DNA of 42,919 nucleotides, taken from NCBI GenBank assembly GCA_020725055.1, contig DYFS01000004.1, positions 1 to 42,919 on the forward strand, given 5' to 3'. Made by a program: the position numbers and the translations under genes. The notes below the pieces were generated by a model. The model ran no database searches, had not been told where the DNA came from, and saw only the letters and a program-made list of their open reading frames with translations. The DNA is from Candidatus Hadarchaeum sp. GTDB lineage: Archaea; Hadarchaeota; Hadarchaeia; Hadarchaeales; Hadarchaeaceae. This document shows positions 16,767-42,680 of this stretch, piece after piece (the stretch's first letter is position 1; the number at the start of each line of letters is the position of its first letter).

Positions 16767-17591
16767 ATGAAGATTGTTTCAACCGAGCGCCCTGCCACAA
16801 AGGAAAAGCGGCAATACCACATCGCATGCGCCCCGGGGGAGGTCGCCCCCTGCGTGCTTTTGCCCGGCGACCCGGAGCGCGTGCCGAAGATCGCGCGCCT
16901 GTGGGACGAGGCCAAGAAAGTCGCTTACCACCGGGAGTATCAAACTTACACCGGCAAGGCTGGGGGAGTGCCGATCTCAGCAACTTCTACGGGCATAGGC
17001 TGCCCTAGCCTCGCGATAGCTGTCGAGGAGCTGGCGGCGGTTGGGGCCAACACCTTCATTCGGGTGGGAAGCTCTGGCAGCATACAACGGGATGTCAAGG
17101 TCGGGGATGTTGTGATCTCAAACGCTGCGGTCAGGCTGGAGGGGACGAGCAAGCAGTACGTGCGCGTCGAGTACCCCGCGGCGGCAAATTATGAGGTGCT
17201 GCTGGCATTAATTCAAGCTGCCGAGAAGCTCGGGCACCGCTACCACGTTGGGATAACCGCTTCGACCGACTCCTTCTACCTTGGTCAGGGCAGACCTGGC
17301 TTGGGCGGGTACACCCAATCGTTTGCGAAAGACGTAATGCAAGATCTGCAGGCAGCGCGGGTCATGAATTTCGAGATGGAGACTGCGTCGCTCTTCACGA
17401 TTGCTGGCGTTTATGGCTTCCGTGCAGGGAGCGTTTGTGCGATTTTCGCGAACCGCGTTACCGGCGAGTTCGGAGTTGGTGAGGGGGAAATGGCGAGTGC
17501 TGAAATCGCGACTGAGGCTGTAAAAATTTTGGCGAAGATGGACAATGAGAAACAAAAATCTAAGAAAAGGCATTGGGTACCCTCTGTTTAG
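16767..17591 (+). CDS. Uridine phosphorylase-like nucleoside phosphorylase
   Basis: LLPGDPERVPKIA, STGIGCPSLAIAVEEL, FIRVGSSGSIQ, VMNFEMETASLFTI: NP-I/uridine phosphorylase motifs. Confidence 0.87.
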   Translation: MKIVSTERPATKEKRQYHIACAPGEVAPCVLLPGDPERVPKIARLWDEAKKVAYHREYQTYTGKAGGVPISATSTGIGCPSLAIAVEELAAVGANTFIRVGSSGSIQRDVKVGDVVISNAAVRLEGTSKQYVRVEYPAAANYEVLLALIQAAEKLGHRYHVGITASTDSFYLGQGRPGLGGYTQSFAKDVMQDLQAARVMNFEMETASLFTIAGVYGFRAGSVCAIFANRVTGEFGVGEGEMASAEIATEAVKILAKMDNEKQKSKKRHWVPSV

Positions 17592-17609
17592 GTTGATTTC
17601 GGTGGGCTG

Positions 17610-18770
17610 ATGAGGGGCGTTGCAATCATAGGCTGCGGGATGACAAAATTTGGGCGTCGGGAGGAAGACCTGGTAGAGCTGCTCGCCGAGGCCTCGCTAC
17701 GCGCGATCGAACACGCGGGAGTCAGCGATAAAGATTTCGATTCGGTTTACGTGGGGAACATGATGGCTGGAGAACTCGTCCACCAGACTGCCATCGCGAG
17801 CTCTTTGGTTGACCGAATTAACCTCGCCCCCGCCGCCGCTGAGCGAGTCGAGAACGGTCCAGCCTCAGGGGCCTCCGCCTTCAAGAATGGACTTCTGGCT
17901 GTAGCATCCGGTGCAGCAGACTTGGTGCTCGCCGCGGGCGGGGAGAAGATGACGGCTGCGGACACCGATGTCATCACCGACTTAGTTTCAACGATGACCC
18001 ATCCCATTGCAGAGTATGTGCACGGGGTGACCCTACCCGCGATGGCTGCTATGCTTGCCCGCCTCTATATGGAGCGCTACGGCCTTACCGAGCGCCACCT
18101 AGCCATGGTCGCCGTGAAAAATCACACCAACGGGATGAAGAACCCCTACGCCCACATCCAGAGGTTATGCACGGTTGAGGGCGCCATGAGTTCGGGCGTG
18201 ATTGCGGATCCCATACGGCTTTACTACGCCTGCCCCATTAGCGACGGTGCCGCAGCCGTGGTCCTGTGCCCATTGGAGAAAGCCCGGGAATTCACAGATA
18301 AGCCGATTCGAATCGCCGGCTTCGGGCATGCGACCGATGTGCAAACCCTCCAGGAGCGGGAGGACCCCGCTGTGCTCAAATCTGTCAAGATAGCCTCGCA
18401 GCAAGCGTTCAAAATGGCCAAGCTTACGCCAAAGGACATAGATGTTGTGGAGTTGCATGATGCATTCGAAATCTTGGAAATAGTGCAGAGTGAGGACGCT
18501 GGGTTCTTTGAGAAAGGAAAGGGGCATCTGGCGGTTGAAAAGGGCGTGACCGCGCTCGATGGCGAGTTGCCGATCAATCCTTCGGGCGGACTGAAGGCCA
18601 AGGGACATCCTGTAGGGGCTACTGGTGTAGCCCAAATAACCGAACTCGTCTGGCAGCTGCGGGGTGAGGCGGGGGAGCGACAGGTCAAAGATCCCAAGCG
18701 GGCTTTCGCGTGCAACTTTGGTGGGTTTGGGAATAACACTGTCATTCACATTTTGGAAAGGGCGTGGTGA
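17610..18770 (+). CDS. Thiolase-family protein (acetyl-CoA acetyltransferase / SCP2-type)
   Basis: VAIIGCGMTKFGRR start, GASAFKNGLLAVASGAADLVLAAGGEKM, INPSGGLKAKGHPVGATGVAQ. Confidence 0.88.
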   Translation: MRGVAIIGCGMTKFGRREEDLVELLAEASLRAIEHAGVSDKDFDSVYVGNMMAGELVHQTAIASSLVDRINLAPAAAERVENGPASGASAFKNGLLAVASGAADLVLAAGGEKMTAADTDVITDLVSTMTHPIAEYVHGVTLPAMAAMLARLYMERYGLTERHLAMVAVKNHTNGMKNPYAHIQRLCTVEGAMSSGVIADPIRLYYACPISDGAAAVVLCPLEKAREFTDKPIRIAGFGHATDVQTLQEREDPAVLKSVKIASQQAFKMAKLTPKDIDVVELHDAFEILEIVQSEDAGFFEKGKGHLAVEKGVTALDGELPINPSGGLKAKGHPVGATGVAQITELVWQLRGEAGERQVKDPKRAFACNFGGFGNNTVIHILERAW

Positions 18771-18771: not shown

Positions 18772-19119
18772 ATGCAGGAAAAATTCATGGGGTTCAAGTG
18801 TAGAAAATGCGGCCGGGTGATGTACCCCCGCCATGACCGCTGTCTGAGCTGTAGAGGCAGGGAGTTCGAGGAGGCAGAACTGGGAAAGGAGGCCGCACTT
18901 GTAACATATACAAAGGTCTATGCTATTCCCGAGGGGATTGAAATGCCGCCGCTGGTGCTCGGGATAGTTGAGTTCCCGGGAGGCGTCAGAGCGATGGGGC
19001 AACTTACTACAGACGACCCGAAAATTGGGGTGAAGCTCCGCCCCGTATGGGGGAAGCTCCGCAAAATAGGTGAAAAAGAGGTTTACGGGTTCAAGTTCGA
19101 GCCAGTCGAAAAAGGTTAA
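18772..19119 (+). CDS. DUF35 OB-fold/zinc-ribbon protein (thiolase partner)
   Basis: FKCRKCGRVMYPRHDRCLSCRG zinc ribbon followed by OB-like domain; directly follows thiolase. Confidence 0.85.
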   Translation: MQEKFMGFKCRKCGRVMYPRHDRCLSCRGREFEEAELGKEAALVTYTKVYAIPEGIEMPPLVLGIVEFPGGVRAMGQLTTDDPKIGVKLRPVWGKLRKIGEKEVYGFKFEPVEKG

Positions 19120-19151: not shown

Positions 19152-19748
19152 GTGATGGAGGTTGACTGGGGCAAAATAATGAAGCCATACCCGAAAAGGA
19201 ACATCACTCTACCAAACGGCGAGGAGATGATCGTCTATTCTCAGGGAAAGGATGAAATCGAAAAAGTCGCCGATGTTTTGCTGCCGAATGTGAAATACCA
19301 CGCGGACCTCTTCGACCTCGTGAACGCCGAGATAATCACTGAGCTCTACCTCTGGCGGGAGAACCGGGAGATCTGGGGTTGCCCGGCCGCGAGCCACTTC
19401 AACTTGGTCGGCAAGGTCGGCGATGAGATTGTCGGAGTCTCGAACGGCGTGCTCCGCGATCCGAAAGTCGGCTGCAGCCTTCACACCACCACGCTGAAGC
19501 GCGGGCTGCAGATAGGCGCTTACCTCTGGCCGTGCAAGCTAGAGCATTACTTCGATGTGCTTGGGATTGAAAGGCTTGAAGCGAGTGCAGAGAGCGCGAT
19601 CGGCGGCAGAAAATTGTTCGCCACATACGGGTTTACAGTCATGCCGTTCCCAGAATACCGCAGCCACTTCGGCACACAGCTGCAGGTAATGACGAAGGAA
19701 CAGTGGAATCGAATAAAGGCCGGCAAGCTCGCGGGCGAACGGATTTAA
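19152..19748 (+). CDS. Uncharacterised protein with weak GNAT-like resemblance
   Basis: 198 aa; VGKVGDEIVGVSNGVLRDP and ...SAIGGRKLFATYGFTVMP resemble the acetyl-CoA-binding end of GNAT folds, without a clear signature. Confidence 0.4.
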   Translation: MMEVDWGKIMKPYPKRNITLPNGEEMIVYSQGKDEIEKVADVLLPNVKYHADLFDLVNAEIITELYLWRENREIWGCPAASHFNLVGKVGDEIVGVSNGVLRDPKVGCSLHTTTLKRGLQIGAYLWPCKLEHYFDVLGIERLEASAESAIGGRKLFATYGFTVMPFPEYRSHFGTQLQVMTKEQWNRIKAGKLAGERI

Positions 19749-20710
19749 TCCTCGCAGAGCAAGGCCTTCTGGGGTTTATTCTGGCACGATTAGCGAGGGC
19801 GACTTTCATAGCCCCTGCTGTGCTCGAAGCGTTGGGGTCAGGAGCCGCGGGCGAAATTCACAGCGTTTTCGAGCGGACTTTCAACATCTTGATAGGCGGC
19901 GAACTTGTGGGTGTCGCTCGGAGTGGTGTCTCACGGGGCCCGATTAATTTGATCACCGATATCCCTGCGAGCGAAAGCATGTCCGCGCTCGGCGTCGGCA
20001 AGGGAATGCATGTTCGAAAAGTCGGTAGTCGGTTACTCATCGACGAGGTGCTCGAGATTTCGCTAGAGGGGGCGGAGCTCTGGCGGCCCAAAACTCGCGC
20101 CGAACGGTGTCTCGACCTCGAGCTCATCAAACGCAACCTAGAGCTGGCAAAGAAGCTAGCCGCAAGCAATGCCGGGCGCGAGGGACTGGGCCAATTGTTG
20201 TCGCATGTCGACGAAATCTCCGTAGGCAAAGTGAATCCAACGCCTGACTTAAACGCGGTGGCTAGGACTGTTTTACCTCTGTTGGTTCAGCTTTCGGGAG
20301 CGGTCAAATCTGGAGATGTTAGGGGTATCGAGAGGGTTGCTCAAAAACTCATCGGGCTTGGTCCCGGGCTTTCCCCCTCCGCTGACGACGCGCTGTCCGG
20401 CTTCACGGCTGCTCTTTGGTGGGTCTCCCATTCAGTAAACAGGGGTGTTGACCGCGTGGAGGAGATTAATCGAGCAATCGCCGGTCAAGCAAGTGGCACG
20501 ACTTTGTTGAGCGGACAGCTCTTACGGCATGCCGCTCGTGGTGAGGTCAACGAACGGGTGGAGAAACTGCTCGGAAAACTGCTGGATGGCGCGCCATCCG
20601 AAATCGAGCCATTGGTAAAGCAGGTCCTAAAAATCGGTGAGACTTCTGGAATCGATATGATGGTTGGACTTCTGTTGGGGATGCGGGTTGGGCTGGAGAT
20701 AGGAGAGTAG
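19703..20710 (+). CDS. DUF2877 / AllH (YlbF)-like subunit of an oxamate-carbamoyltransferase-type complex
   Basis: LIGLGPGLSPSADDALSGFTAALWW signature of DUF2877; start may be internal as the ORF overlaps the preceding gene. Confidence 0.75.
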   Translation: MESNKGRQARGRTDLILAEQGLLGFILARLARATFIAPAVLEALGSGAAGEIHSVFERTFNILIGGELVGVARSGVSRGPINLITDIPASESMSALGVGKGMHVRKVGSRLLIDEVLEISLEGAELWRPKTRAERCLDLELIKRNLELAKKLAASNAGREGLGQLLSHVDEISVGKVNPTPDLNAVARTVLPLLVQLSGAVKSGDVRGIERVAQKLIGLGPGLSPSADDALSGFTAALWWVSHSVNRGVDRVEEINRAIAGQASGTTLLSGQLLRHAARGEVNERVEKLLGKLLDGAPSEIEPLVKQVLKIGETSGIDMMVGLLLGMRVGLEIGE

Positions 20711-21285: not shown

Positions 21286-22080
21286 TTATTCTTCTGCCGC
21301 GACCTTCTTCAGGAAGATGCCTTCTGGGTCCACCTTCTCCCGCAGGATTTTTATCTCGGCCTCGGTCGGCGGTTCCGTCTTTTTTGCCCGCGAAACATCG
21401 AGCTTAAAACCTGTGTTCTTTTTGACCTGCTTGGGCGTCACCCCCGGGTGGTACGAAGCGAGGTAGGCCCGCTTCGTCCGCTCGTCAAACCTCAGCACCC
21501 CTAGGGTGGTGATGACTGCGGAGGGACCACCCCAGGGCAACCCGGCCCGCTTCCGCCCCTCAGGCCCATCGATCCAGCCGGGACTCGTGATGTAGTCGAC
21601 GCGCTCGGGAAACCTCCGCTTCTCGTGGACGGCGATGATTATCGTTCGCTTCGAAAGGCAGGCGATGTCCCCGGAACCCCCGCTTCCCGGAAAGCGGACC
21701 TTCGGGCGATGGTAGTCACCGATGCAAGTTGCGTTTATGTTTCCGTACGCGTCGATCTGCGCCCCGCTGAGGAACCCGACATCGATGTACCCCCGCTGCA
21801 GGATTGTGGAGAAAACGTCGAAGAGCCCCGTCGCAGTCGAGGCAAAACGCATCGTGCGAGGGTCTCCCACCGACATCGGGAGGTGGGCGAGCTTGCAGTC
21901 GACGGCCCCCGCCTCGAAGACTATGGTGCAGTTGGGAGCATGGGTGTGCTGGGCGAGCATGGCCCCGAGCATCGGCAGACCGGTCCCAGCAAAAACGATT
22001 TCTCGATCCTTGATTTCCCGCGCCGCAGCCACCGCCATGAGTTCAATCAGCGTATAATCCTTCGCGTATTTTTTCTCCAT
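21286..22080 (-). CDS. CoA-transferase beta subunit (glutaconate CoA-transferase-like)
   Basis: MAVAAAREIKDREIVFAGTGLPMLGAMLAQHTHAPN; paired with adjacent alpha subunit. Confidence 0.85.
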   Translation of the reverse strand: MEKKYAKDYTLIELMAVAAAREIKDREIVFAGTGLPMLGAMLAQHTHAPNCTIVFEAGAVDCKLAHLPMSVGDPRTMRFASTATGLFDVFSTILQRGYIDVGFLSGAQIDAYGNINATCIGDYHRPKVRFPGSGGSGDIACLSKRTIIIAVHEKRRFPERVDYITSPGWIDGPEGRKRAGLPWGGPSAVITTLGVLRFDERTKRAYLASYHPGVTPKQVKKNTGFKLDVSRAKKTEPPTEAEIKILREKVDPEGIFLKKVAAEE

Positions 22081-22084: not shown

Positions 22085-23053
22085 CTACCCCCGCTTTAGT
22101 TTTGGCGCGTACCCCAGCTTCTTGTCCGCCTTGAGCTTCCTGAGTTTCTCGGCACCGCCTATTTTCCCGAGGTACTCCTCCCAGTCCCCAACACCGTAAA
22201 TGTATTCGTTGAAAAATTCTCTGAAAGATGCATCATCCCTTGCTCGCTCGTGATACAGCCGCAGGAACTCTGGATCGTAATCGTAGTACCTATAGCACGC
22301 ATACGGGTGGGCGCCGTACGGAACCTTGATGATTGCGTTCACCCTGAAAAACGGGATGAGGTTGTGCTCTGGGTACTCGCGCAGCTCCTCCGGCTGCACG
22401 ATTTCCTCACATGTGACGATTAGTTTTTTTGCACACTTCGCCTGTTGTTCGTCACCAAAGTTCTGCCCATAGATTCGAACGGTCCCTTGGGCATCCACAA
22501 CCTGGGCATGGATGATGGTCACGTCGGTTTGAATCGCCGGAAGAAGCACTATTTTGTCTCCGGTGAATGGGCAGTTTATGGTGGCGAGCTTTTTCGGGGC
22601 GATCTTTGGATCACTCCTCCTCGTTTTCTCGCTGAAGCCCTCTTTTTTCACTATGTCGGACCCGAGCATCGTCCTGGTTGGGATGAAAGGTATCCCCATC
22701 GCCCCCGCCGCGAACCTTTGTACCATCCCGAAGTTACTGTAATCCTCCCATTCGATCAGACCCCCCTCAACAGCACGCCTGAACCTAGGTCCGATTCTGG
22801 CAAACGCCTCATCCGCCTCGTAAGCGAGCTCAACCCTTCGAACGCATCCGGCCCCGATCAACATGTCGAGGTCGCCGCCGGGGGAGTGCCCATAGAAATG
22901 GAGGTTTCGCCTTTTTTGCCTGATTAGCTCGTAGACGAATGCCATCGGGTGGCGCTGGGTTGTGAAACCGCCAAGCGAGATGTGAGCGCCGTTCGGCACG
23001 AGTTTTGTAGCCTCGCGCAAGCTCATGATTTTATCATCAACCTTGGACGCCAC
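22085..23053 (-). CDS. CoA-transferase alpha subunit (glutaconate CoA-transferase-like)
   Basis: SLREATKLVPNGAHISLGGFTTQRHPMAFVYELIRQ; family I CoA-transferase alpha pattern. Confidence 0.87.
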   Translation of the reverse strand: MASKVDDKIMSLREATKLVPNGAHISLGGFTTQRHPMAFVYELIRQKRRNLHFYGHSPGGDLDMLIGAGCVRRVELAYEADEAFARIGPRFRRAVEGGLIEWEDYSNFGMVQRFAAGAMGIPFIPTRTMLGSDIVKKEGFSEKTRRSDPKIAPKKLATINCPFTGDKIVLLPAIQTDVTIIHAQVVDAQGTVRIYGQNFGDEQQAKCAKKLIVTCEEIVQPEELREYPEHNLIPFFRVNAIIKVPYGAHPYACYRYYDYDPEFLRLYHERARDDASFREFFNEYIYGVGDWEEYLGKIGGAEKLRKLKADKKLGYAPKLKRG

Positions 23054-23102: not shown

Positions 23103-24491
23103 CTAGTACTTCTCAGCCATCGCTTTCAGCGCCTTCTTGAAGCACTCCATCGGCGCACGGAGCACGCCGAAGCCCACCGTGCCAAAGCCCGGCTTCTTGT
23201 GAGCCACGCCGGTGTTGATGAACGGCAGGATGCCCGTGTCAATGACCTTCCGCAGGTCGATGCCGCGCGGTATGCCCTCGAAGTTCATGAATGGGATCGG
23301 CAGGTTGCCGTCCTTCACCAAGCATATCTCGCCCATCTCGCGGGTGTAATCGGCTGCGATGCTAGGCGACCCCCCTACCACTTGGACAACGGCTGGTGCT
23401 GCTGCTGAAGCGAAGCCCCCGAAGCCGGCAGTCTCCATTATCGCGCTGTCACCGATGTCTGGGTTGGCGTCCGCCTCACTGAACCCCGGGAAGAAGAGCG
23501 TCTTCGGAACCTCCGCAGGCGCCGTGAACCACTGACCGGGCAACCCGCTCCCCCTGATGCCGAAGTCCGTGCCGTTCCGCGAGAGGGTGGTGACGACGGT
23601 GCTGTGCTCGATACCGTGCGCCGCGTCGAGCGTCGCTTTGCACGCAGCCATCGCCGGGTTCAGGAAGAAGAGGAAGTTGTCACCCATGAACTTTAGAACC
23701 TCGTCGATTTCGCGCTTGTCGAAGCCCGTCTCGGCTAGGTGCGGCGCCATGATTTTCAGGAGGATCAGGCTGCTCGCGACGTTCCTGCAGTGGAGCTCGT
23801 CGCCCATCTGCAGCGCCTGGGCCATTATCGCCTTAATGTCGATCGGTCCAGAGTACTTCAGCGCCTCGGCGAGCATCGGCGCGAGTGTTTTTTCCATCCA
23901 CTTCAGCCTTTTGATCACGCTTTCCTCATAGGCGCCGTAACGCAGCACCTTGCCGAGCCCCTCATTGAAGTTCGAATACGAGCGGTTGCCGTGCTCCTTG
24001 TTTTCGATGACGAAGACCGGCATCGAGGGCGAGATTATGCCAGCCATTGGCCCCACGGAGTCGTGGTCATGACAAGCCCCAAACTTTATCTCCCCGCTTG
24101 AGGCCAGCTTGTCCGCCTCCTTCTGGTCTTTCGCCAAGCCTTCGTAAATCAGTGCCCCCCACACCGCTCCCTTGGTTGGGCCGGACATCCGCTCCCACCT
24201 AATCGGCGGTCCGGAGTGCAGAATCGTGTGCCCAGTCATTCCGGGGATTACATCCTTCGCTGTTTTGATGTCGACGAGCGCCGGCTTTACAGCAAGGATT
24301 TTTGCGACGGCGCGCTCGTTCGCCTCGTCGATTTCTGGGCGGTCGAGTTTCGCAAGCAACCGCGCTAGCTCGGGGTCACCTCCAGCGGGCGGGCGCCAGT
24401 CGACGTGGGCAACATCCGCGCCCTGGGCACGCATACTGTCGTAGAAGGAGCGCAGCCCGACGTTTACCAGCTTCGGCCGATCCAGTCTCAT
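23103..24491 (-). CDS. DUF1116 / AllG (YlbE)-like subunit
   Basis: DVAHVDWRPPAGGDPELARLL, GMTGHTILHSGPPIRWERMSGP, PVFVIENKEHGNRSYSNFNEGLGKVLRYG typical of DUF1116; start at MRLDRPK overlapping the AllF stop. Confidence 0.88.
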   Translation of the reverse strand: MRLDRPKLVNVGLRSFYDSMRAQGADVAHVDWRPPAGGDPELARLLAKLDRPEIDEANERAVAKILAVKPALVDIKTAKDVIPGMTGHTILHSGPPIRWERMSGPTKGAVWGALIYEGLAKDQKEADKLASSGEIKFGACHDHDSVGPMAGIISPSMPVFVIENKEHGNRSYSNFNEGLGKVLRYGAYEESVIKRLKWMEKTLAPMLAEALKYSGPIDIKAIMAQALQMGDELHCRNVASSLILLKIMAPHLAETGFDKREIDEVLKFMGDNFLFFLNPAMAACKATLDAAHGIEHSTVVTTLSRNGTDFGIRGSGLPGQWFTAPAEVPKTLFFPGFSEADANPDIGDSAIMETAGFGGFASAAAPAVVQVVGGSPSIAADYTREMGEICLVKDGNLPIPFMNFEGIPRGIDLRKVIDTGILPFINTGVAHKKPGFGTVGFGVLRAPMECFKKALKAMAEKY

Positions 24492-26053
24492 TTCAGCTTC
24501 CCCCATGCCTTGCCCTTCGTGGATATCAGCGCGGCGATTCTCGCAGCCTCAGCATTGCTGGGCATCACCACAACGCCCGCGTCTTCAAGCTTCTTCTTCT
24601 GCACCTCGAGGCTCTGCGGGTCGCGGGCCGTGCCACAAACAGAGGTGATGACCGACAGATAACCGTTGCTCTTCTCCACGATTTTCTTCGCCTCAGCGAT
24701 TGCGCCAACGAGTTCACCAGCCGGATCGGGGTTTGCACCGTAGCCGAGAACGTTGTCAAGCAACATAACGGCCACCTCCCAATCCTTCGCCTCGCGTAGC
24801 AGGCGCTCGCACCTCGGTTTGAAGAAGATCATCGGGTGAGGGGTGCCGCGCGTGAACTCCTCGGTGCCCATGTCAACGCACGTGTGGCGCTTGCTCTTGT
24901 AGGTGCTCGGCAGCCTGAGCCTCGGTTTGAGTGGGACGTTTGAGTAGATGTCGCCCACGAGCTCCTGCAAGATAAGCATGGCCTCCGTGCACAGCGTTCC
25001 CCCCGAGAAGAGGCCGCGGATGTACTTTTGACCGGGGGCGAAATTTTCAGTTTCGCGCTCGACGATGGCTTCGATTTGCTTCCGTGGGGCGGTGAACGTA
25101 ACTTCTTTCGGCTTCTTGCCCTGAGCGATGGCAATGGCTTTTGCGGCAGCGTCTCCGAGCGTGGCGGCATAAGTTGCACCTTGGCGTGCGACGAGCGACT
25201 CGGGCGCACCGAGCAGGCATGCGACAATCGGCTTGCGGGTTTCTTTCGCCGCTTTGAGCACCCCCTGTGCGACGCTCGTTGCAGGGGCTTTTGCGACGAG
25301 CACAATTACCCTCGTCTCTGGGTCGTTGGCGAGGAATCGGATGGCGCCCAGAGTGCCGAGCCCATCCACCTTCTGCGAGAGGTCGCGACCACCGACACCT
25401 AACGCGTGTGTAACCCCAGATTCAACGTCAATCAATCGCGTGATCTCTTGGATGCCGGTGCCAGCAGCCCCAACTACTCCGATTGGGCCGCGCTTGACGG
25501 CGTTCGCGAAGCCTAGCCCGACTCCACCGATGATAGATGTCCCAGCTTCGGGCCCAAGCAAGAGCAGATTTTTATCGAGCGCGGTCCGCTTCAGCTCAAT
25601 CTCATCTTCGAACGGCACGGCGTCGCTGAATATCATGACGTGCTTGCCGGCGTTGATGGCGCGCATCGCCTCTCGCGCCGCAAATTCTCCGGGGGTTGAT
25701 ATGACCACTAAATTGGCGTCGGGCAAAGCCGAAAGTGCGGAGCCAAGAGTTTTGTACACGATTTCGCCCTTTTCTGCCTCCTTCGCGGTGAGCAACCCCT
25801 CAACCTTCGAGAGAGCCTGCTTCGCCGCCTCCTCGCTTGTGGCGTCGATCGCGATGACGAGGTCGTTAGCACCAGCGCTCCGCACCTCATCCATGAACAG
25901 CCCGGCGTCTTTCAACATCTGCTTGTTGTTGTCGGTGCCCATCATCACAGACGCCTTTCGCACCCCCTCGAGTTCCTCAAGCTCCTTCGAGATGCGCATG
26001 AGGACTACGGAATCGCGGTACTCGTTCTTGCGTACCAAACTTTTCGTTACCAA
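24488..26053 (-). CDS. FdrA / AllF-like acyl-CoA-synthetase-related subunit
   Basis: RKNEYRDSVVLMRISKELEELEGVRKASVMMGTDNNKQML and GPEAGTSIIGGVGLGFANAVKRGPIGVVGAAGTGIQE; TTG start at 26053 preceded by GGAGGT. Confidence 0.88.
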   Translation of the reverse strand: MVTKSLVRKNEYRDSVVLMRISKELEELEGVRKASVMMGTDNNKQMLKDAGLFMDEVRSAGANDLVIAIDATSEEAAKQALSKVEGLLTAKEAEKGEIVYKTLGSALSALPDANLVVISTPGEFAAREAMRAINAGKHVMIFSDAVPFEDEIELKRTALDKNLLLLGPEAGTSIIGGVGLGFANAVKRGPIGVVGAAGTGIQEITRLIDVESGVTHALGVGGRDLSQKVDGLGTLGAIRFLANDPETRVIVLVAKAPATSVAQGVLKAAKETRKPIVACLLGAPESLVARQGATYAATLGDAAAKAIAIAQGKKPKEVTFTAPRKQIEAIVERETENFAPGQKYIRGLFSGGTLCTEAMLILQELVGDIYSNVPLKPRLRLPSTYKSKRHTCVDMGTEEFTRGTPHPMIFFKPRCERLLREAKDWEVAVMLLDNVLGYGANPDPAGELVGAIAEAKKIVEKSNGYLSVITSVCGTARDPQSLEVQKKKLEDAGVVVMPSNAEAARIAALISTKGKAWGKLK

Positions 26054-26097
26054 AAATCTAACCTCCAGAATTTTCAGGTAAAAATCGCTGAAACCCC

Positions 26098-26104
26098 TTA
26101 TAAA
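26098..26104. promoter_or_regulatory. TATA-like element TTATAAA, proposed for the minus-strand AllF operon
   Basis: CCCCTTATAAACC about 45 bp upstream of the proposed AllF TTG start. Confidence 0.4.
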
Positions 26105-26154: not shown

Positions 26155-26189
26155 TTCTCTGGCACACCTTCAGCCAGGAGGTTGGAAAA

Positions 26190-32995: not shown

Positions 32996-33412
32996 TCAGA
33001 TGACCTCGACCATCCCCTCTTTGCTGACCATAACGGCGAAATCTCTGAGGGCCTTTCTGCGCTTGAGGTTTTTCCACCCGAGTGTTTCCGTAATCAGCCT
33101 CACGACCTCAGAGTAGTTGTGGGAGACCTTTATGCGCTTCCTGTCGGCTTTGCTGAAGACTCGCTCGGAGACTTCGTAGACGTTGGAACCAGCTTTTACG
33201 TCTATTTTGATCGGCCACTTGATGGTCTCGATAAGCTTCAAGGTATTCCTCGCCCTGCCGATGTTTTCTTCCGCCGTCTTCAGGATAGCGCTGACATTAG
33301 ACCGGCTCGTGCGCAGTTCCGCCGCTATTTTCGCTAAAGTCCGCCCCTCGCGCCTCATCCTGAGAACTTCGAACTGCCTTTTCGTGAGATGAGTATCTTT
33401 GATGTTAACCAT
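32996..33412 (-). CDS. Tfx-family DNA-binding regulator
   Basis: DTHLTKRQFEVLRMRREGRTLAKIAAELRTSRSNVSAILKTAEENIGRARNTLKLIE HTH plus archaeal Tfx-like C-terminal domain. Confidence 0.82.
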   Translation of the reverse strand: MVNIKDTHLTKRQFEVLRMRREGRTLAKIAAELRTSRSNVSAILKTAEENIGRARNTLKLIETIKWPIKIDVKAGSNVYEVSERVFSKADRKRIKVSHNYSEVVRLITETLGWKNLKRRKALRDFAVMVSKEGMVEVI

Positions 33413-33484
33413 TTTTGGTTCACATTTGTCTATTTATTGACTTTTTTATTTAAATTTTTGGATGCGGATGCAGGGGGGCCAAAT

Positions 33485-34642: not shown

Positions 34643-35601
34643 AAGCCGAGGACGCAATCGGGAAGCGGCTTGCCCACGATGTTGTCCGCTACGGGCCCGG
34701 GCTCAAGTCCGTCCTGTTCAAGAGGGGGCATGTGATCACTATCGCGGACGTGGAGCGGCTGAAAGACACCGGGAATTACTCCGTCTACGCCGCAGGGAGG
34801 GGGGAAGAGGGGGTCCACGAGGACGAAGCTGCGACTAGGATGGCTCAGGCTTCGGCGGGTGAAAACGTTTTTTGGGTGAGACCAAACCAGGGAAAAGTAA
34901 ACTTGCTTGCAAAGGTCCCCGGGCTCTTGAAGGTCAAGGCCGATGTCATCAAGCAGATCAATCTCATCGATGATTTCATTTTCTCCACCCGGCCCAACTA
35001 CACAGGGGTTAAAAAGGGAGGGCTCGTGGGCTCCGTCAAGATAGTTCCGCTGATGGTGGGCGGGGGCCGCATGAGGAAGGTGGAAGAAATCTTGAAACGA
35101 AACAAGCCCGTCCTCAAGGTGACCCCCACAAAGGTCAAGAAGATTGGTATCGTTATAACAGGAACTGAGGTTTACGAAAAAAGGATAAAGGACGCTTTCC
35201 TGCCGGCCCTGAGGGAGAAACTCGCGGGCTACGGTTTGAAGGTTCGGGAAACAGTCGTTGTGCCAGACGACGAGGAAAAAATAAGAGAGAAAATCATCGG
35301 CTTCAAGCGGGAGGGCTGTGAACTCATCTTGGTCGCGGGCGGGATGGCGGTCGACGCAGGGGATGTTACACCAGCCGCGATAAGGAAAACCGGTGCAGAA
35401 GTCATCTCACGCGGCGTCCCGGTCTTCCCTGGCTCTATGATGATGCTCGCCTACCTCGGCAGCACGGCGATTATGGGCCTCCCCGCGTGCGTGTTCGTCG
35501 ACAAGCGAACGAGCTTTGACCTGCTCCTGCCGCGGGTCCTTGCGAAGGAAAAAGCAACGAAGGCCGAGCTCGCGGAACTCGGGCACGGTGGGCTACTGTG
35601 A
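34627..35601 (+). CDS. Molybdopterin-binding (MoeA/MoaB-like) protein
   Basis: KKIGIVITGTEVY...LILVAGGMAVDAGDVTPAAIRKTGAEVISRGVPVFPGSMMMLAYLG; MoCF-biosynthesis-like domain. Confidence 0.8.
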   Translation: MVKRVKAEDAIGKRLAHDVVRYGPGLKSVLFKRGHVITIADVERLKDTGNYSVYAAGRGEEGVHEDEAATRMAQASAGENVFWVRPNQGKVNLLAKVPGLLKVKADVIKQINLIDDFIFSTRPNYTGVKKGGLVGSVKIVPLMVGGGRMRKVEEILKRNKPVLKVTPTKVKKIGIVITGTEVYEKRIKDAFLPALREKLAGYGLKVRETVVVPDDEEKIREKIIGFKREGCELILVAGGMAVDAGDVTPAAIRKTGAEVISRGVPVFPGSMMMLAYLGSTAIMGLPACVFVDKRTSFDLLLPRVLAKEKATKAELAELGHGGLL

Positions 35602-36158
35602 TAGGCGCTATCGTGCTTGCCGCTGGTGAGTCGAAGCGGATGGGCGAGCCGAAGCCGCTTGTCAAAATCAAAGGTAAGCGCATGATCGAGTGGGTAATCT
35701 GTTCCTTCGAGGGCACGGCCGATGATATAATCGTCGTGTTGGGGCATGAACCAGAGGCCGTAAAGCCGGTGCTGGAGAAGCTCGGGGTGCAGTGGGTGGT
35801 GAACGAAAATTACCACGAGGGAATGGCTTCCTCGTTCAAGAAGGGTCTCAAAGAACTTGAGGGTTGTGACGCGGTTTTTTTGGCGTTAGGGGACCAGCCG
35901 CTCATCGATCGAGATTTTTTGAAAAGGGCAATTGGTGTTTGGAAAGGCGGAGCGAAAATCGTAAGCCCGGTGTACAAAGGGAAGAAAGGGCACCCAGTTC
36001 TCTTTGATAAAAGTTTATTCAGCGAAATTCTCTCACTTAAAAAACAAGAGACAGTTCGAGATATCATTCACCGACACACCGGCGAGCTTCAACTCATCGA
36101 AGCAGAAAAATGGGCCCTTGTAGACATCGACACGCCCGGAGACCTTCAAAAGATTTGA
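35598..36158 (+). CDS. MocA/MobA-like molybdenum cofactor nucleotidyltransferase
   Basis: AIVLAAGESKRMGEPKPLVKIKGK and VFLALGDQPLIDRDFL. Confidence 0.88.
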   Translation: MIGAIVLAAGESKRMGEPKPLVKIKGKRMIEWVICSFEGTADDIIVVLGHEPEAVKPVLEKLGVQWVVNENYHEGMASSFKKGLKELEGCDAVFLALGDQPLIDRDFLKRAIGVWKGGAKIVSPVYKGKKGHPVLFDKSLFSEILSLKKQETVRDIIHRHTGELQLIEAEKWALVDIDTPGDLQKI

Positions 36159-36169: not shown

Positions 36170-37000
36170 TCAACAGGGGTGTTTAGTTCCAGACGCTTTT
36201 CTCTTCTCTTTTATCAGCTCAGCTGCTATGCTCACGGCTATCTCTTCAGGCGTTTTCGCGTTTATGTCGAGGCCGATCGGAGCTTTTATCCTCTTTATCG
36301 CCTTTGCCAGCACCCTATCCTTTCGCAAAACCTCTTTCAGTTTGGCGATTTTGCGCGCGCTCCCGAGCAGGCCGAGGTAAGCCGTTCGCTCGCGGACGAA
36401 TCTGCGCAGGGCAGCGAGGTCGTGTTTCGGCTCCCCATGCACAATCGCCACGCAGGTGCGCCCATCGACCTTCACCTCTTTCAAAGCTTTTTCAAAATCC
36501 TCGCGATAAACTAGCTTCGCGTTCGGGAATCGGCTTTTTGTCAGGGTGTCTTCGTTGTCGTCAACCACTGTTATGTCAAAACCCAAGAGGTCGGCCACGG
36601 TGTAAGTTGGGAGAGCTATATGGCCGGAGCCGACGATCACCAACTTGGGCTTTGGCTCGACCACGTCCACGAACACCGTCATCGCCCCACCACACCACAA
36701 CCCCGTATCCAACTCACCCTCCTTTGCCCCGCCATAAAAGGAGAACTTCAAGCTCCTCGACTTACCCCCCCTAATCGCCTTCAGCGCCTCTTGCCTGAGC
36801 CCCCTCTCGAAGCACTCGCCACCGCCTATTGTTCCGATGATTTCCCCGTCCTCGGTAACAAGCATCTTCCTTCCCGGCTCGGCTGGCCCTGAGCCTATTT
36901 TCTCCACCACAGTGCAGAGCGCCACTCTCTTCCCCTCCTCCAGGAGTTTTGGGAGCCGTTCGAAAATGTTTACAGGGTTTGACATCCTCCCCCACCTCAC
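36170..37000 (-). CDS. XdhC/CoxI-family maturation factor
   Basis: LLEEGKRVALCTVVEKIGSGPAEPGRKMLVTEDGEIIGTIGGGECFE and Rossmann VIVGSGHIALPTYTVADLLGF. Confidence 0.9.
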   Translation of the reverse strand: MRWGRMSNPVNIFERLPKLLEEGKRVALCTVVEKIGSGPAEPGRKMLVTEDGEIIGTIGGGECFERGLRQEALKAIRGGKSRSLKFSFYGGAKEGELDTGLWCGGAMTVFVDVVEPKPKLVIVGSGHIALPTYTVADLLGFDITVVDDNEDTLTKSRFPNAKLVYREDFEKALKEVKVDGRTCVAIVHGEPKHDLAALRRFVRERTAYLGLLGSARKIAKLKEVLRKDRVLAKAIKRIKAPIGLDINAKTPEEIAVSIAAELIKEKRKASGTKHPC

Positions 37001-37611: not shown

Positions 37612-38415
37612 CTAGATCATTTCTCTGCGCTTTGTCACCCAGATGCTCAACTGGAACAGGATAACTGCGTACGTCAACAGCACTAAGAAGCTCAGGGTTG
37701 GTTCTGGGTTCCACTTGAATCTCAACCGTTGACCGGGCATTCCACCGAACGCTTGCTGGAGAGGAACCCCATAAGTGTTGGCAACCGCGTCTCCGGCATA
37801 GTCGGGCATAAACCAGGGAGCATAGCCCGCGTAAGACAAACTCGTTGAGATGATCGGGAAAATCAGCATGAAAGTTAGAAGCGTGGCTATCGTCGCCCCC
37901 ATGCTCCCCTTTAGCAGGGAACTAAAGGTGAATGCTATACTTAGTACACAGCACGCTAGCATCAACGCAATGGCAAACGACCCCAATATCCCGCCCGGTA
38001 ATCGTCGGTAGAACCCCAGCAACGCGCCCGTCGAAATCAAATATGCTAGCGCAAGTATCGCGGCCGTGGCGATGAAGCAGGCGATGTATTTTCCCGCCAC
38101 CAGGGTAATCCGCCTCACCGGGTTCGGGAACAATATGTATCCGGTTTTGCGCTCGAACTCGGATGCAATGGCATCCCCTGCAAAGAACACCGCGCCGAGG
38201 ATGGCTATCGTACTCATCGACGTCACGAATATCGCGAAGAGTTCTGGGGTATCTGGAGCACCCATCTGCCTAGGTAGATCTAGCCCCTTGTAAAGCCCAA
38301 TGGTTAAAATGACGGCAATAACTGTGATAGCCAAAGCTCCGTAGAACCGCCTCCTCCGGAACTGCTTCAACAACTCGTACCGCGTGACTGTTTTTAACTT
38401 CTCGAACTCGCTCAA
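37612..38415 (-). CDS. ABC-2 type transporter permease
   Basis: 267 aa, about six TM segments, LLKQFRRRRFYGALAIT start, downstream of and overlapping the ATPase gene. Confidence 0.82.
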   Translation of the reverse strand: MSEFEKLKTVTRYELLKQFRRRRFYGALAITVIAVILTIGLYKGLDLPRQMGAPDTPELFAIFVTSMSTIAILGAVFFAGDAIASEFERKTGYILFPNPVRRITLVAGKYIACFIATAAILALAYLISTGALLGFYRRLPGGILGSFAIALMLACCVLSIAFTFSSLLKGSMGATIATLLTFMLIFPIISTSLSYAGYAPWFMPDYAGDAVANTYGVPLQQAFGGMPGQRLRFKWNPEPTLSFLVLLTYAVILFQLSIWVTKRREMI

Positions 38416-39143
38416 ATGGTCACCTCCGTGAGCTTGAGATACGCCCGCTCTAACGAACGGTATTTTTTCTTCAGGTGGGCGATGTTGTCATAGGCGCGCA
38501 GTTTTCCGTGGTCGATTATCGCCACTTTTTTACATATTTGGGCGACCTCGGTGAGCAGGTGGGAGGCGAAGAAAACCGTTTTTCCCTTCCTTGCTTCCTT
38601 TAGAATCTCCCGCACCTCCATCATGCCCCTGGGGTCTAGGCCCAAGGACGGCTCGTCGAGGATGAGGATCGGCGGGTCGTGGAGCAAGGCTTGCGCGAGG
38701 GCGAGGCGCTGCTTCATCCCCCGCGAGAATTTTTCTACCCTCACATTGGCCCATCTCTCAAGACCGACGAGTTTGAGGACTTCCTTTATCCTGTGCCTCA
38801 GCTCACGCCCGTGCATCTTTCGAAGCCTCCCCAAGTAATTCAGGGTCTCATCTGGAGTGAAGAAGGGGTAGAACTCGGGCGTCTCCAAAATAGCCCCCAC
38901 CATCGAAACCGCCCGTTCGCGCTCCTCGGCTACGTTGGCACCGTTGATGTAAGCCGTGCCCGAAGAAGGGCGTAGGAGGCCGCATAGGAGCTTGAGGGTG
39001 GTGGTCTTCCCCGCGCCGTTCGGGCCGAGCAACGCAACGTCTTCGTTCCTCCTCACCTTGAGCGAGAGGTTGTCGAGGGCGAGAAAGCTGTTGTAGTACT
39101 TACTCAACCCCTCGATGACGATTGAACCGTCCATTTTTAACAC
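38412..39143 (-). CDS. ABC transporter ATP-binding protein
   Basis: LLGPNGAGKTTTLKLLCGL Walker A, FSRGMKQRLALAQALLHDPPILILDEPSLGLDP. Confidence 0.95.
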   Translation of the reverse strand: MLKMDGSIVIEGLSKYYNSFLALDNLSLKVRRNEDVALLGPNGAGKTTTLKLLCGLLRPSSGTAYINGANVAEERERAVSMVGAILETPEFYPFFTPDETLNYLGRLRKMHGRELRHRIKEVLKLVGLERWANVRVEKFSRGMKQRLALAQALLHDPPILILDEPSLGLDPRGMMEVREILKEARKGKTVFFASHLLTEVAQICKKVAIIDHGKLRAYDNIAHLKKKYRSLERAYLKLTEVTI

Positions 39144-39221: not shown

Positions 39222-39686
39222 TTGCCGTACGTGTACTGTGACCCGAAGCTATGCACCGGTTGCAGGGCCTGCGAACTCGTTTGCGTTGGTTTTCACGAGC
39301 GTGTGTTTAACCCTAAGATAGCGCGCATCCGCGTGGTGAGATCCGAGCCAGCTTCGGATATCACGATCACGTGCCACCAATGCGAAGACCCCCCATGCGT
39401 GAAGGTATGCCCAGCTGGCGCCATCCGCAAGCTCAAGAGCGGCTTGGTTGAGGTCATCGATGCCCGCTGCGTGGGCTGCGGCGTGTGTGCCGAGGCATGC
39501 CCGTTCGGGGCGATCTGGCTGCACCACGAGCGGGGGAAAGCGACAAAGTGCGACCTGTGCGGCGGTGACCCCCAGTGCATCAAGCATTGTGTACCCGGTG
39601 CGCTGAAGCTTACGGCACCTGAGGGGGTAGCCATCGAAAGGCGCTTCGCAGCCGCGGTGCGCCGAGCGCCGGAGCGCGGGGGATGA
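39222..39686 (+). CDS. Multi-cluster 4Fe-4S ferredoxin (AOR partner)
   Basis: CTGCRACELVC, CHQCEDPPCVKVCP, CVGCGVCAEACPFG, CDLCGGDPQCIKHC; TTG start. Confidence 0.9.
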   Translation: MPYVYCDPKLCTGCRACELVCVGFHERVFNPKIARIRVVRSEPASDITITCHQCEDPPCVKVCPAGAIRKLKSGLVEVIDARCVGCGVCAEACPFGAIWLHHERGKATKCDLCGGDPQCIKHCVPGALKLTAPEGVAIERRFAAAVRRAPERGG

Positions 39687-39690: not shown

Positions 39691-41622
39691 ATGGCATTCA
39701 CCTACAAAGGTTACGCTGGCAAATACCTGCGCGTTGACCTCACGCGGGGCAAGACCCTCGAGCTCGAGCTACCGAAGGAGTGGGCGCGCGGCTACATAGG
39801 AGGGAGCGGGATGGGGGCGCGCATCTTGTACGATGAGGTGCCGCGCAACGTTGGGCCCCTCTCCCCAGATAACATTTTGATTTTCGCGACGGGCCCGGTG
39901 ACCGGCACGGCGTACCCGCCCTCCGGGCGCTACTGCGTCGTCACCAAGGCGCCGCTGACTGGCATTTGGGGCGAGGCTCACTCGGGCGGCTACTGGGGCC
40001 CCGAGCTGAAGTACGCCGGCTACGACCTGATTATCATCCGGGGGAGGGCGCCGAGGCCCATGTACCTTTTCATCGAGGACGGCAAAGTAGAGCTGCGCGG
40101 TGCTAAACGGCTCTGGGGTAAAAACACCGCGGAGACGACTGACGCTATCGAAGGAGAACTGGGCCGCGATGTGAGGGTTGCGTGCATCGGCATGGCTGGC
40201 GAGCGACTCGTGAAGTTCGCGTGCATAATAAACGAGCGCAGCAGGGCGGCAGGGCGGACCGGCGTTGGGGCGGTGATGGGGAGCAAGCGCTTGAAGGCGG
40301 TTGTGGTGCGCGGCAGCGGCAGCATCGAGGTCGCGAACTTCGACCGGGTCTGGGAGCTGACCAAGGAGGCGCACGAGCGGTACACCGGGGGCGAGTGGGG
40401 GAAGGCATCACACGACGCCCTCTACCGGTTCGGGACTCCGGGGCTGGTGAGCTGGGAGAATGAGATAGGCCGCCTGCCGACGAAGGGGCACCGCACCGGC
40501 GTCTTCGACCGGGCCGCGGATATAGGCCCGGAGGTCTTCGAGCGCGAGTTCATAATCCACCGCCGCTCCTGCATGAACTGCCGCATCCAGTGCAAGAAGG
40601 TCGCCAGGGTGGGGCGCTCCGGCCCGTACGCCGGCTTGATAACCGAGGGCCCGGAGTACGAGACCATCGTCGCGCTCGGCTCGAACTGCTTGGTCAGCAA
40701 TTTCCCCGCTGTGATGCAGGTAAACCAGCTCTGCAATCTGCACGGCATGGACACGATTTCATGCGGGGGGGCGGTGAGCTTCGCGATGGAGTGTTTCGAG
40801 CGCGGCGCTTTGAGCGAGCGCGACATAGGCTTCGCGCTGGGGTGGGGGGATGGGGATGCGATGGTCAGGCTCGTTGGGATGATGGCGTCGCGCGAGGGGG
40901 TGGGCGATGTCCTCGCGGAGGGTATTAGAGCCGCGGCGAAGCGCATAGGCAAGGGCTCGGGGCGGTGGGCGATTCAGGTGAAGGGGCTTGAGGCCTCTGG
41001 GCAAGACGGCAGGGCCCACCAATCGGTCGGGCTGACCCACGCCATCTCGGTGATAGGGGCCGCTCACCTGCGGGCGCTTTCCTCTCTCGATGAGCTCGAC
41101 TACAGGAAGACTATAACCGAGCGGTACGGCAAGGCAAGAGCCGCGGCGCTTGGTGACCGACTCTCAACGAAGTACAAAGGGATGCTCGTCAAGGATGTCG
41201 AGGACCTCTACGCGGTGGTCGACGCGCTTATCACCTGCAAGTACGGCACGATGTGGCCGCCGATCTTCTACTTTGAGGACTACGCTGAGATCCTGCCCGC
41301 TGTCACGGGTGTCGAGGAGTTCGGGAGCGTCAAGGAACTTCGAATCATCGCCGAGCGCATCGTCAACCTCAAGCGCGCCTTCAACGCTAGGCTTGGTCTG
41401 GGCCGCAAGGACGACACGCTGCCCGAGCGCATGCTGAAGGAGCCGATGCCAGAGGGGCCGGCAAAGGGCAGGGTGGTCGACCTGAAGCCGATGCTGGACG
41501 AGTACTACCGCGAGCGGGGGTGGGACGTTCGCACGGGGTTGCAACGCCGCGCTACTCTCGAGCGGTTTGGGCTTGCCGACGTTGCGCGGGATTTAAAGAG
41601 GGTAGGCGCCCTAGCAAAATAG
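39691..41622 (+). CDS. Aldehyde:ferredoxin oxidoreductase-family (tungsten) enzyme
   Basis: GYAGKYLRVDLTRGK, FATGPVTGTAYPPSGRYCVVTKAPLTGIWGEAHSGGYWGPELKYAGYDLIIIRG, CMNCRIQC cluster motif. Confidence 0.93.
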   Translation: MAFTYKGYAGKYLRVDLTRGKTLELELPKEWARGYIGGSGMGARILYDEVPRNVGPLSPDNILIFATGPVTGTAYPPSGRYCVVTKAPLTGIWGEAHSGGYWGPELKYAGYDLIIIRGRAPRPMYLFIEDGKVELRGAKRLWGKNTAETTDAIEGELGRDVRVACIGMAGERLVKFACIINERSRAAGRTGVGAVMGSKRLKAVVVRGSGSIEVANFDRVWELTKEAHERYTGGEWGKASHDALYRFGTPGLVSWENEIGRLPTKGHRTGVFDRAADIGPEVFEREFIIHRRSCMNCRIQCKKVARVGRSGPYAGLITEGPEYETIVALGSNCLVSNFPAVMQVNQLCNLHGMDTISCGGAVSFAMECFERGALSERDIGFALGWGDGDAMVRLVGMMASREGVGDVLAEGIRAAAKRIGKGSGRWAIQVKGLEASGQDGRAHQSVGLTHAISVIGAAHLRALSSLDELDYRKTITERYGKARAAALGDRLSTKYKGMLVKDVEDLYAVVDALITCKYGTMWPPIFYFEDYAEILPAVTGVEEFGSVKELRIIAERIVNLKRAFNARLGLGRKDDTLPERMLKEPMPEGPAKGRVVDLKPMLDEYYRERGWDVRTGLQRRATLERFGLADVARDLKRVGALAK

Positions 41623-41657
41623 AAGGGGTATCATAATAATCAAAAAGAGGTGATCTG

Positions 41658-42680
41658 ATGGTCGAGCTCTACGGCAAGGATTTCATAACGACGCAGGACT
41701 GGAGCGTCGATGAGCTGGTGCACGCGATAAAAGTTGCCAGAAAATTCAAGGACATCGTGAAGAAAGGCGGGCGCCCGCCGAGGGTCTTGGACCGCAAGAA
41801 TTTCTTCATGCTTTTCTATGCCCCGTCGACCAGGACGCGGGGGGCGTTCGAGGCGGCGGCGTCGATTTTGGGGGGCCACCCCGCCTTCATAGACGTTTCA
41901 ACCACCCGGATGGAGGAGGCCGTGAAGGACGCCGCCAAGATGTACGACTCGTACGCGGATGGGATTGGGGTGAGGATTCTGGACAAATACATCGACTTCG
42001 TCTACGGCGCTGGGTACAAGGTCGTCGCCGAGTTTGCACGGGTCGCGAAGGTGCCGGTGATCAACATGGCGTGCTGTACCTACCACCCGACGCAGGGGCT
42101 CGGGGACATCATGACCGTAGAGAACAAAATCGGCAAGGTGAGGGGGAAGAAGTACACGATAACTTGGGCCTACTCGAGCAAGCCTCGCGGGCGCTGCAGC
42201 ATCCAGGAAGAAGTGCTAATCGCGACGCGCTTCGGAATGGATGTCGTGCTCGCACACCCGAAGGGCTTCGAGATCGACCCGACAATTGTCGGGGCGGCGA
42301 AGCGGAACGCGAAGGAGAGCGGGGGCGGCTTCAAGATAAGTAACGATTTTGAGGAAGGGCTCGAGGGCGCGAACGTCGTGTTCCCGCGGAGCTGGGGCAC
42401 TTCGGAATTCCTCAGGGTCGGGGCGACGAAATTCGGCGTGGGCAAGGAGGTCGCGGTCTACAACAAGCACAAGGACTGGAGGCTAGATCAGCGCCACGTC
42501 GAAGACCTAATGGCCAAGCCGGCGATCGTCACGCACGTGTTGCCTGTGATGCGCGGCGAGGAGGCGACGGACGAGGTCATGGACGGGCCGAACTCCGTCA
42601 TCTACGAGCAGGCGGACGACAACTTCTACGCGAAGATGGCCTCGATTGCCCTGACCATGGCGAAAGAAGTGCCGCTTTGA
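41658..42680 (+). CDS. YgeW-like aspartate/ornithine carbamoyltransferase-family protein
   Basis: FYAPSTRTRGAFEAAASILGG carbamoyl-phosphate motif (STRTR); NMACCTYHPTQGLGDIMTVENKIG. Confidence 0.85.
   Translation: MVELYGKDFITTQDWSVDELVHAIKVARKFKDIVKKGGRPPRVLDRKNFFMLFYAPSTRTRGAFEAAASILGGHPAFIDVSTTRMEEAVKDAAKMYDSYADGIGVRILDKYIDFVYGAGYKVVAEFARVAKVPVINMACCTYHPTQGLGDIMTVENKIGKVRGKKYTITWAYSSKPRGRCSIQEEVLIATRFGMDVVLAHPKGFEIDPTIVGAAKRNAKESGGGFKISNDFEEGLEGANVVFPRSWGTSEFLRVGATKFGVGKEVAVYNKHKDWRLDQRHVEDLMAKPAIVTHVLPVMRGEEATDEVMDGPNSVIYEQADDNFYAKMASIALTMAKEVPL

Follow-up and report, generated by a model that had tools for sequence, protein, structure and literature searches.

A 42,919-nucleotide contig of Candidatus Hadarchaeum sp. 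(DYFS01000004.1, assembly GCA_020725055.1; here the window, contig C27 of genome G000) carries between positions 16767 and 32755 what is most likely, as judged from gene content and conservation, the archaeal form of a module for anaerobic pyrimidine catabolism that is widespread. The module combines all three subunit families of the oxamate carbamoyltransferase AllFGH with a molybdenum (Mo) hydroxylase and a cyclase-family metallohydrolase, and its substrate looks like uracil rather than a purine. Further along the window, an AOR-family oxidoreductase and a knot-type transcarbamylase appear to be part of another pathway, one for reductive purine breakdown, with its other genes on contigs C29 and C39 of the same genome. 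As an explanation of the whole, a uracil-oxidising route in the module together with this separate purine pathway has, in our judgement, a somewhat better than even chance of being correct. The host is a deep-subsurface archaeon of the Hadarchaeota. In guts and anoxic sediments, pyrimidines from RNA serve as a source of energy and nitrogen; their anaerobic breakdown is generally assumed to be reductive (PydA).

Gene assignments were made from Pfam and NCBIfam profile matches with curated cut-offs, PDB matches, and predicted structures. The window genome comprises 1.09 Mb in 53 contigs and is 90% complete. For the wider comparison of archaea and bacteria, 84,980 GTDB genomes were scanned and the 80 best AllG loci kept; co-occurrence statistics use the 69 of these that are at least 9 kb long. 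An AllG locus that carries the module, with cyclase and Mo subunit, is called a module locus. Genomes, contigs, and loci are referred to by G, C, and L numbers.

The core gene set and its conservation

The AllF (FdrA)-type subunit (24488-26167, minus strand; NF004760, 474 bits against a cut-off of 433; 37.5% to E. coli AllF), the AllG-type subunit (23103-24506, minus strand; PF06545, 320 bits, cut-off 27; 48% to E. coli AllG), and the AllH-type subunit (19703-20710, plus strand; PF11392, 88 bits, cut-off 25) all score above their cut-offs. The annotated start of AllH overlaps the preceding gene and its true start may lie downstream. Residues 8-54 of AllG match the C-terminal segment of E. coli AllF (508-554). 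This segment of about 47 residues is a separate short open reading frame in G002, G004, G016, and G021 (L028, L029, and L026 among the loci); in Sphaerochaeta (L060) AllF and AllG form one reading frame, with the segment internal to the fusion.

Divergent from AllF lies the cyclase-family metallohydrolase (26190-27020, plus strand; PF04199, 124 bits), proposed to be a barbiturate ring-opening enzyme. It carries the PF04199 metal motif HxGTHxDxPxH as HIGTHLDAPRHF, and its predicted fold is nearest to isatin hydrolase (4m8d, E 2.5e-10), although the model is of low confidence (predicted local distance difference test, pLDDT, 65). It would share motif and fold with isatin hydrolase and kynurenine formamidase, at about 20% identity. 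The Mo-hydroxylase has its 2x[2Fe-2S] subunit at 29004-29471, its FAD subunit at 29472-30329, and its Mo subunit, a proposed uracil dehydrogenase, at 30326-32755, all on the minus strand and assigned by profile match. The original prediction read these genes as a xanthine dehydrogenase (XDH)-type enzyme. Its three subunits are indeed present, but xanthine chemistry is doubtful because all of them miss the XDH cut-offs (Mo 585 against 780 bits, FAD 205 against 310, FeS 185.5 against 217) and because alanine occupies the site of Glu802 of bovine XDH, the purine-binding residue. The Mo subunits of the module form one clade (n=28, support 100) in which every member has this alanine, and they share two motifs private to the clade, KAPAMP and WQTVASR, with WSTVAS as a slight variant of the second in L040. 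Glutamate is found at the site in the paralogues L125, L126, and L077, and E. coli XdhA itself has glutamine; Hadarchaeal paralogues of the Mo subunit either have the glutamate or fall with XdhD of E. coli. An assignment as 4-hydroxybenzoyl-CoA reductase, the best PDB match, was rejected at 567 against 994.55 bits.

The core contains several further genes, of which the uridine phosphorylase (16767-17591, plus strand) is discussed below. It is followed on the plus strand by an SCP2-type thiolase (17610-18770; NF004720, 462 bits against 420), its DUF35/ChsH2-type partner with a Zn-ribbon and OB-fold (18772-19119; PF01796, PF12172), and a GNAT-fold protein of 198 residues (19152-19748). The last has no Pfam or NCBIfam match; its model (pLDDT 90) has a GNAT acetyltransferase fold with 1yre as best match (E 5e-8), and homologues occur in module loci. 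On the minus strand, a class I CoA-transferase is encoded by subunits of GctB type (21286-22080; PF01144) and GctA type (22085-23053; 1poi, glutaconate CoA-transferase, 248 bits), the pair being closest to glutaconate CoA-transferase. These genes (the CoA-transferase pair, thiolase with DUF35, and GNAT-fold protein), and a molybdate transporter, were absent from the original prediction. Both strands are used and unrelated genes are interspersed, including those for a NERD protein (20725), topoisomerase IB (27375), TFX (32996), and an ABC transporter (37612-39143); the stretch is therefore better described as a region than as an operon.

The gene set is conserved among relatives, as the original prediction had proposed should be looked for, and also in distant bacteria. 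The nearest AllG homologues in GTDB are in metagenome-assembled genomes (MAGs) of Hadarchaeota (Hadesarchaea), and AllG was found in 12 of 121 relatives, every one in the same family. Its surroundings keep AllF in other genera, Mo-hydroxylase subunits in G012, G004, and G005, and the cyclase in those three and G002. The CoA-transferase accompanies AllFG in G001, G012, and G004; the order thiolase-DUF35-GNAT-AllH is kept in G005 and G016; and uridine phosphorylase lies near AllG in G005. In G003, uridine phosphorylase, cyclase, and Mo-hydroxylase occur together on a contig other than that of AllG. Orthologues of the Mo subunit (at least 74% identity) are present in G000, G002, G003, G004, G005, G010, G012, and G016, each of which also has AllG, and nucleoside-type ABC transporter genes (Bmp) adjoin the module in G004 and G016.

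Across the 80 best AllG loci, a cyclase is present in 33, a Mo subunit in 29, and carbamate kinase in 28, and 23 are module loci, which span at least eight phyla and include one from a Pyrodictiaceae archaeon. Cyclase and Mo subunit are strongly associated in the 69 longer loci (both in 24, neither in 36, discordant in 3 and 6; Fisher p 8e-10), and cyclase and carbamate kinase tend toward mutual exclusion (p 0.002). For 20 of the 33 cyclases, AllG is a same-strand neighbour no more than 300 nt away. In Clostridium rhizosphaerae (L064) a complete operon on a single strand reads GNAT-thiolase-DUF35-AllH-AllF-AllG-cyclase-FAD-FeS-Mo-permease. The thiolase is also found in module loci L060, L065, L087, L095, L109, and others, and uridine phosphorylase and CodA-like genes occur in module loci. 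In an AllG tree, read without the E. coli AllG row, presence of the cyclase is clustered (14 changes against 24 when shuffled, 0 of 500 shuffles as low). It is not confined to one clade, which points to gains and losses or to transfer.

Substrate, proposed route, and alternatives

Comparative evidence suggests uracil as the substrate of the module: the uridine phosphorylase, UraA-type permeases, the Mo-subunit clade with its alanine, the CodA-like genes of module loci, and the Bmp transporter genes adjoining the module in G004 and G016. The phosphorylase, predicted earlier simply as a nucleoside phosphorylase, could be narrowed to uridine (TIGR01718, 302 bits against a cut-off of 280); the top PDB matches are likewise uridine phosphorylases, and an alignment places SDTFYPGQER, the pyrimidine motif, opposite TDSFYLGQGR (GQxR, with the pyrimidine-binding Gln and Arg). 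Among NCS2 permeases with a recognisable motif, those of module loci begin it with E-N in 9 of 9 cases, like UraA and RutG of E. coli, whereas those of AllFG loci without cyclase begin it with Q-N in 8 of 8, like XanQ and UacT (p 4e-5, for loci that are phylogenetically non-independent). Identity of module permeases to UraA reaches 70% in L040, 63% in L057 and L078, and 58% in L064. Motif and overall similarity disagree in some loci: the non-module permease of L112 has Q-N, yet is nearest UraA overall, and those of module loci L038 and L058 have E-N with a slightly higher overall score to UacT. Permeases of L095 and L086 have no recognisable motif and are nearest UraA. A CodA-like amidohydrolase, possibly a cytosine deaminase, is encoded at 10475-11704 on the minus strand (PRK07572, 409 bits against a cut-off of 438); it keeps the metal-site residues of CodA and Gln156, with Cys in place of Asp314. 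Its orthologues (52-61%) lie between AllG and the cyclase in L110 and L066, fetched stretches without a Mo subunit.

From these assignments a route can be proposed. Uridine phosphorylase, whose family assignment was tested, would release uracil from uridine; the Mo-hydroxylase would oxidise C6 of uracil to give barbiturate; and the isatin-hydrolase-like cyclase would open the ring to ureidomalonate. Ring opening of barbiturate is known to yield ureidomalonate (3-oxo-3-ureidopropionate, HOOC-CH2-CO-NH-CO-NH2; PMC3758960), and AllFGH of E. coli converts oxalurate (HOOC-CO-NH-CO-NH2), by a reversible phosphorolysis, into oxamate plus carbamoyl phosphate (PMC11326118). Ureidomalonate is the same kind of acylurea as oxalurate with one additional CH2, and the steps needed match the three enzyme types of the operon. 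We infer that ureidomalonate is more likely than oxalurate to be the substrate of AllF-AllG-AllH here, with malonamate and carbamoyl phosphate as products. Carbamoyl phosphate could then yield ATP through carbamate kinase or, since no CarA was found, feed arginine and pyrimidine synthesis. The CoA-transferase could bring malonamate or malonate into CoA metabolism; together with it, the thiolase with DUF35 and the GNAT-fold protein are proposed to handle the CoA ester of this C3 acid. Separately, a nitrilase-family amidase, a candidate malonamate amidase, is encoded in module loci L043 (14390-15310), L038, and L062.

Several observations weigh against this route. What the Mo-hydroxylase produces and what the cyclase acts on were both deduced from chemistry alone, and a switch from oxalurate to ureidomalonate appears invisible in the AllF and AllG sequences: comparison of module with non-module AllF, AllG, and AllH gave a single strongly discriminating position, AllG 313 (T versus V). 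The permease comparison draws on related loci. Neither a UraA-type permease in the window nor a Bmp transporter in its genome was found, which leaves uptake unexplained. The AtzD family of barbiturases was unmatched in the window genome, as it was in the control genomes. The thiolase, DUF35, GNAT, and CoA-transferase genes have no assigned steps on the main route, and carbamate kinase (AllK) is not in an operon with AllFGH, lying instead in an arginine operon on C39.

Uracil, or thymine or cytosine, might instead be degraded by other chemistry. The Mo enzyme would then hydroxylate another position or an intermediate whose ring is already open, and the substrate of AllFGH would be some other acylurea or a ureido acid. 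The permease and uridine phosphorylase evidence leaves the order of steps unfixed, the CodA-like genes of L110 and L066 would fit such a variant, and the thiolase, DUF35, and GNAT genes are left unexplained by the barbiturate route; as that order needs exactly the enzyme types present, and oxalurate and ureidomalonate are homologues one carbon apart, we give this possibility only a modest probability. It is unlikely that the module serves purines, with the Mo enzyme as xanthine dehydrogenase and AllFGH as the oxamate carbamoyltransferase that ends ureide breakdown. Such a role would agree with the AllF score above its cut-off, with AllFGH being the proven oxamic transcarbamylase of E. coli (PMC11326118), with SsnA/PreA-type purine genes in the window genome, and with a PucR-type regulator in module locus L043. 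However, module loci contain no enzymes of allantoin or ureidoglycolate metabolism, their permeases are of UraA type, with xanthine/urate-type permeases only outside the module, and the uridine phosphorylase, the alanine at the purine-binding site, and the missed XDH cut-offs all speak against it. Moreover, by established chemistry, turning a purine into oxalurate takes more than a single cyclase.

Supply of carbamoyl phosphate could itself be the main role, with AllFGH and carbamate kinase feeding arginine and pyrimidine synthesis rather than ATP formation in a lineage without carbamoyl phosphate synthetase. Carbamate kinase, which the original prediction noted as absent from the window and worth seeking elsewhere, is at C39:22173-23111 (446 bits, cut-off 358), at the end of the arginine operon. 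In a search of G000-G027, CarA was not found in the window genome (90% complete) and exceeded its cut-off in one Hadarchaeal relative, G008, which lacks AllG; 14 of 14 control genomes were matched. With no CarA found, carbamoyl phosphate must, as far as these genomes indicate, come from carbamate kinase or from the transcarbamylases described here, unless CarAB is encoded in the missing tenth. The bacterial module also occurs in lineages where CarAB is expected, and a supply function is compatible with the uracil route; as the main role it is very unlikely. Least probable is that unrelated genes have come together by chance on this MAG contig: genes on both strands with unrelated ones between them might suggest it, but the same set recurs in further genera of Hadarchaeota and, as operons, in distant bacteria, and this conservation contradicts it.

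The second carbamoyl-transfer system

At the end of the window lie a polyferredoxin (39222-39686), its partner, a tungsten AOR-family oxidoreductase (39691-41622; PF01314/PF02730), and a knot-type transcarbamylase of the OTCase family (41658-42680, assigned by profile match and orthologues), all on the plus strand. The transcarbamylase has the carbamoyl phosphate motifs STRTR and HPTQ (HPxQ). The original prediction called it YgeW-like; an OTCase-family gene is present, but it fails the YgeW cut-off (142 against 500 bits) and scores higher as N-acetylornithine carbamoyltransferase (219.5, cut-off 288). A role in arginine biosynthesis was rejected, as argF is already present in an argGHCJBDF-like operon on C39, which makes the gene of the window an additional copy. 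A third member of the OTCase family is at C29:32640.

Orthologues of the transcarbamylase (at least 74%) occur in G001, G004, G006, G012, and G013, and none was found in the AllG-bearing genomes G003, G005, and G010. In G006, which lacks AllG, the gene (81%) is clustered with AOR (79%), PreA-like, SsnA-like, and hydantoinase genes and carbamate kinase; the PreA-like, SsnA-like, and hydantoinase proteins are 81, 80, and 69% to copies on C29 of the window genome. There, SsnA (544 bits against 455.5) and PreA (465 against 335) exceed their cut-offs, and the hydantoinase-like enzyme, missing from the window as predicted, was located below its cut-off (341 against 393). Within the window itself the transcarbamylase is unlinked to SsnA, hydantoinase, or carbamate kinase genes. 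The separate distribution and the linkage in G006 indicate that the two carbamoyl-transfer systems belong to two nucleobase pathways. The prediction of two unrelated systems, and of nucleobase catabolism yielding carbamoyl phosphate, was supported, with carbamate kinase present in the genome. Their union in one pathway was not: AllFGH travels with the cyclase, the Mo-hydroxylase, uridine phosphorylase, and uracil-type permeases, and AOR and transcarbamylase with the SsnA/PreA set in a relative without AllFG. For the same reason, independent occurrence across relatives, a single purine pathway for the whole region was rejected.

The C29 locus (L140, 3183-11296) encodes a PreT/GltA-like oxidoreductase, PreA, SsnA, a second PreA-like and SsnA-like pair, and the hydantoinase-like enzyme, and appears to represent the reductive purine pathway in an archaeal form. 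The known reductive uric acid pathway uses XdhD, YgfK/UacX, SsnA, HyuA, YgeW, and YqeA, with YgeW phosphorolysing a ureido group (PMC12507026). It resembles the linkage of AOR and transcarbamylase to SsnA, PreA, hydantoinase, and carbamate kinase in G006; it differs in that the genes of the window genome are scattered over contigs and the transcarbamylase falls below the YgeW cut-off.

Known systems and neighbouring genes

Compared with the E. coli AllFGHK operon (PMC11326118), the window has the same three subunit families and an expected phosphorolysis of an N-acylurea to carbamoyl phosphate. It differs in the linkage to Mo-hydroxylase, cyclase, uridine phosphorylase, and CoA-transferase, in the location of carbamate kinase elsewhere, in having AllH on the opposite strand, and in having the C-terminal segment of AllF as the N-terminus of AllG. 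The presence of AllFGH in archaea is already known: a 2025 report describes allFGHK clusters in ammonia-oxidising archaea (AOA), other Nitrososphaerales, and comammox, with a bmpA-nupABC nucleoside transporter nearby in one non-AOA MAG (PMC12625717). There, the clusters are read as serving oxalurate use beside a biuret hydrolase, and the passages covered describe no module of Mo-hydroxylase and cyclase. Barbiturate and ureidomalonate, the intermediates proposed here, are also those of the oxidative pyrimidine pathway of a few bacteria, as summarised in PMC3758960. According to that summary, the bacterial pathway uses an AtzD-family barbiturase and hydrolysis by ureidomalonase, in contrast to a PF04199 enzyme, not of the AtzD/Bar fold, and a phosphorolysis that would keep carbamoyl phosphate.

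The new part would be a variant of oxidative pyrimidine degradation that uses a known transcarbamylase family. No paper on a uracil module of Mo-hydroxylase, cyclase, and AllFGH was found in the literature covered, which excluded subscription journals and preprints. The full proposal is of an undescribed archaeal and bacterial anaerobic fermentation of uracil by oxidation, with a Mo-dependent uracil dehydrogenase, a barbiturase of isatin-hydrolase type that has no relation to the known enzyme, and an AllFGH-paralogous ureidomalonate transcarbamylase that conserves the carbamoyl group as carbamoyl phosphate and ATP; we put its chances slightly short of even. If true, uracil dehydrogenase, ureidomalonate transcarbamylase, and a barbiturase of a second kind would all be assigned genes together, and many genes annotated as ‘xanthine dehydrogenase’ and ‘oxamate carbamoyltransferase’ would be re-annotated. 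It would also suggest a source of carbamoyl phosphate for Hadarchaeota, with CarA in one sampled relative only.

Between the core and the second system lie genes for molybdenum supply and maturation: a MOT1-type molybdate transporter (33389-34642; PF16983, 168 bits), a MoCF/MoeA-like cofactor maturation protein (34615-35601; PF00994), and a MocA-like cofactor cytidylyltransferase (35598-36158; TIGR03310, 155 bits, cut-off 186) on the plus strand, and an XdhC-like maturation factor (36170-37000; PF13478, PF02625) on the minus strand. The XdhC-, MocA-, and MoeA-like genes had been predicted, as had AllF, AllG, AllH, the cyclase, AOR, ferredoxin, and the cytosine-deaminase-like gene, and all were recovered at or near the expected positions. 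In G005 (L144, C30, 1-2471), a YgfK-like protein (42% to E. coli) is encoded near XdhC, MocA, MoeA-like, and module Mo-subunit genes, so that purine and pyrimidine genes adjoin there. Another arrangement is seen in L030 (G009:C22), where a more distant AllG (50%) and a cyclase accompany a large oxidoreductase of molybdopterin type, a RidA-like protein, and a pair of GuaD-like amidohydrolases; another ureide or pterin-like pathway is perhaps encoded here.

Divergent from the uridine phosphorylase gene, a xylose-isomerase-like TIM-barrel protein (15728-16711, minus strand; PF01261) may have a role in ribose-phosphate handling; orthologues of 59-62% are placed in the same way in G003, G005, G010, G014, and G016. 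A histone-deacetylase-family protein (3351-4412; PF00850, 321 bits) adjoins a CCA-adding enzyme. DNA topoisomerase IB is known in archaea mainly from Thaumarchaeota-related lineages; the enzyme at 27375-28952 is of the eukaryotic type, and its gene is also found between the cyclase and Mo-hydroxylase genes in G003 (L142, 8053-9636, 78%).

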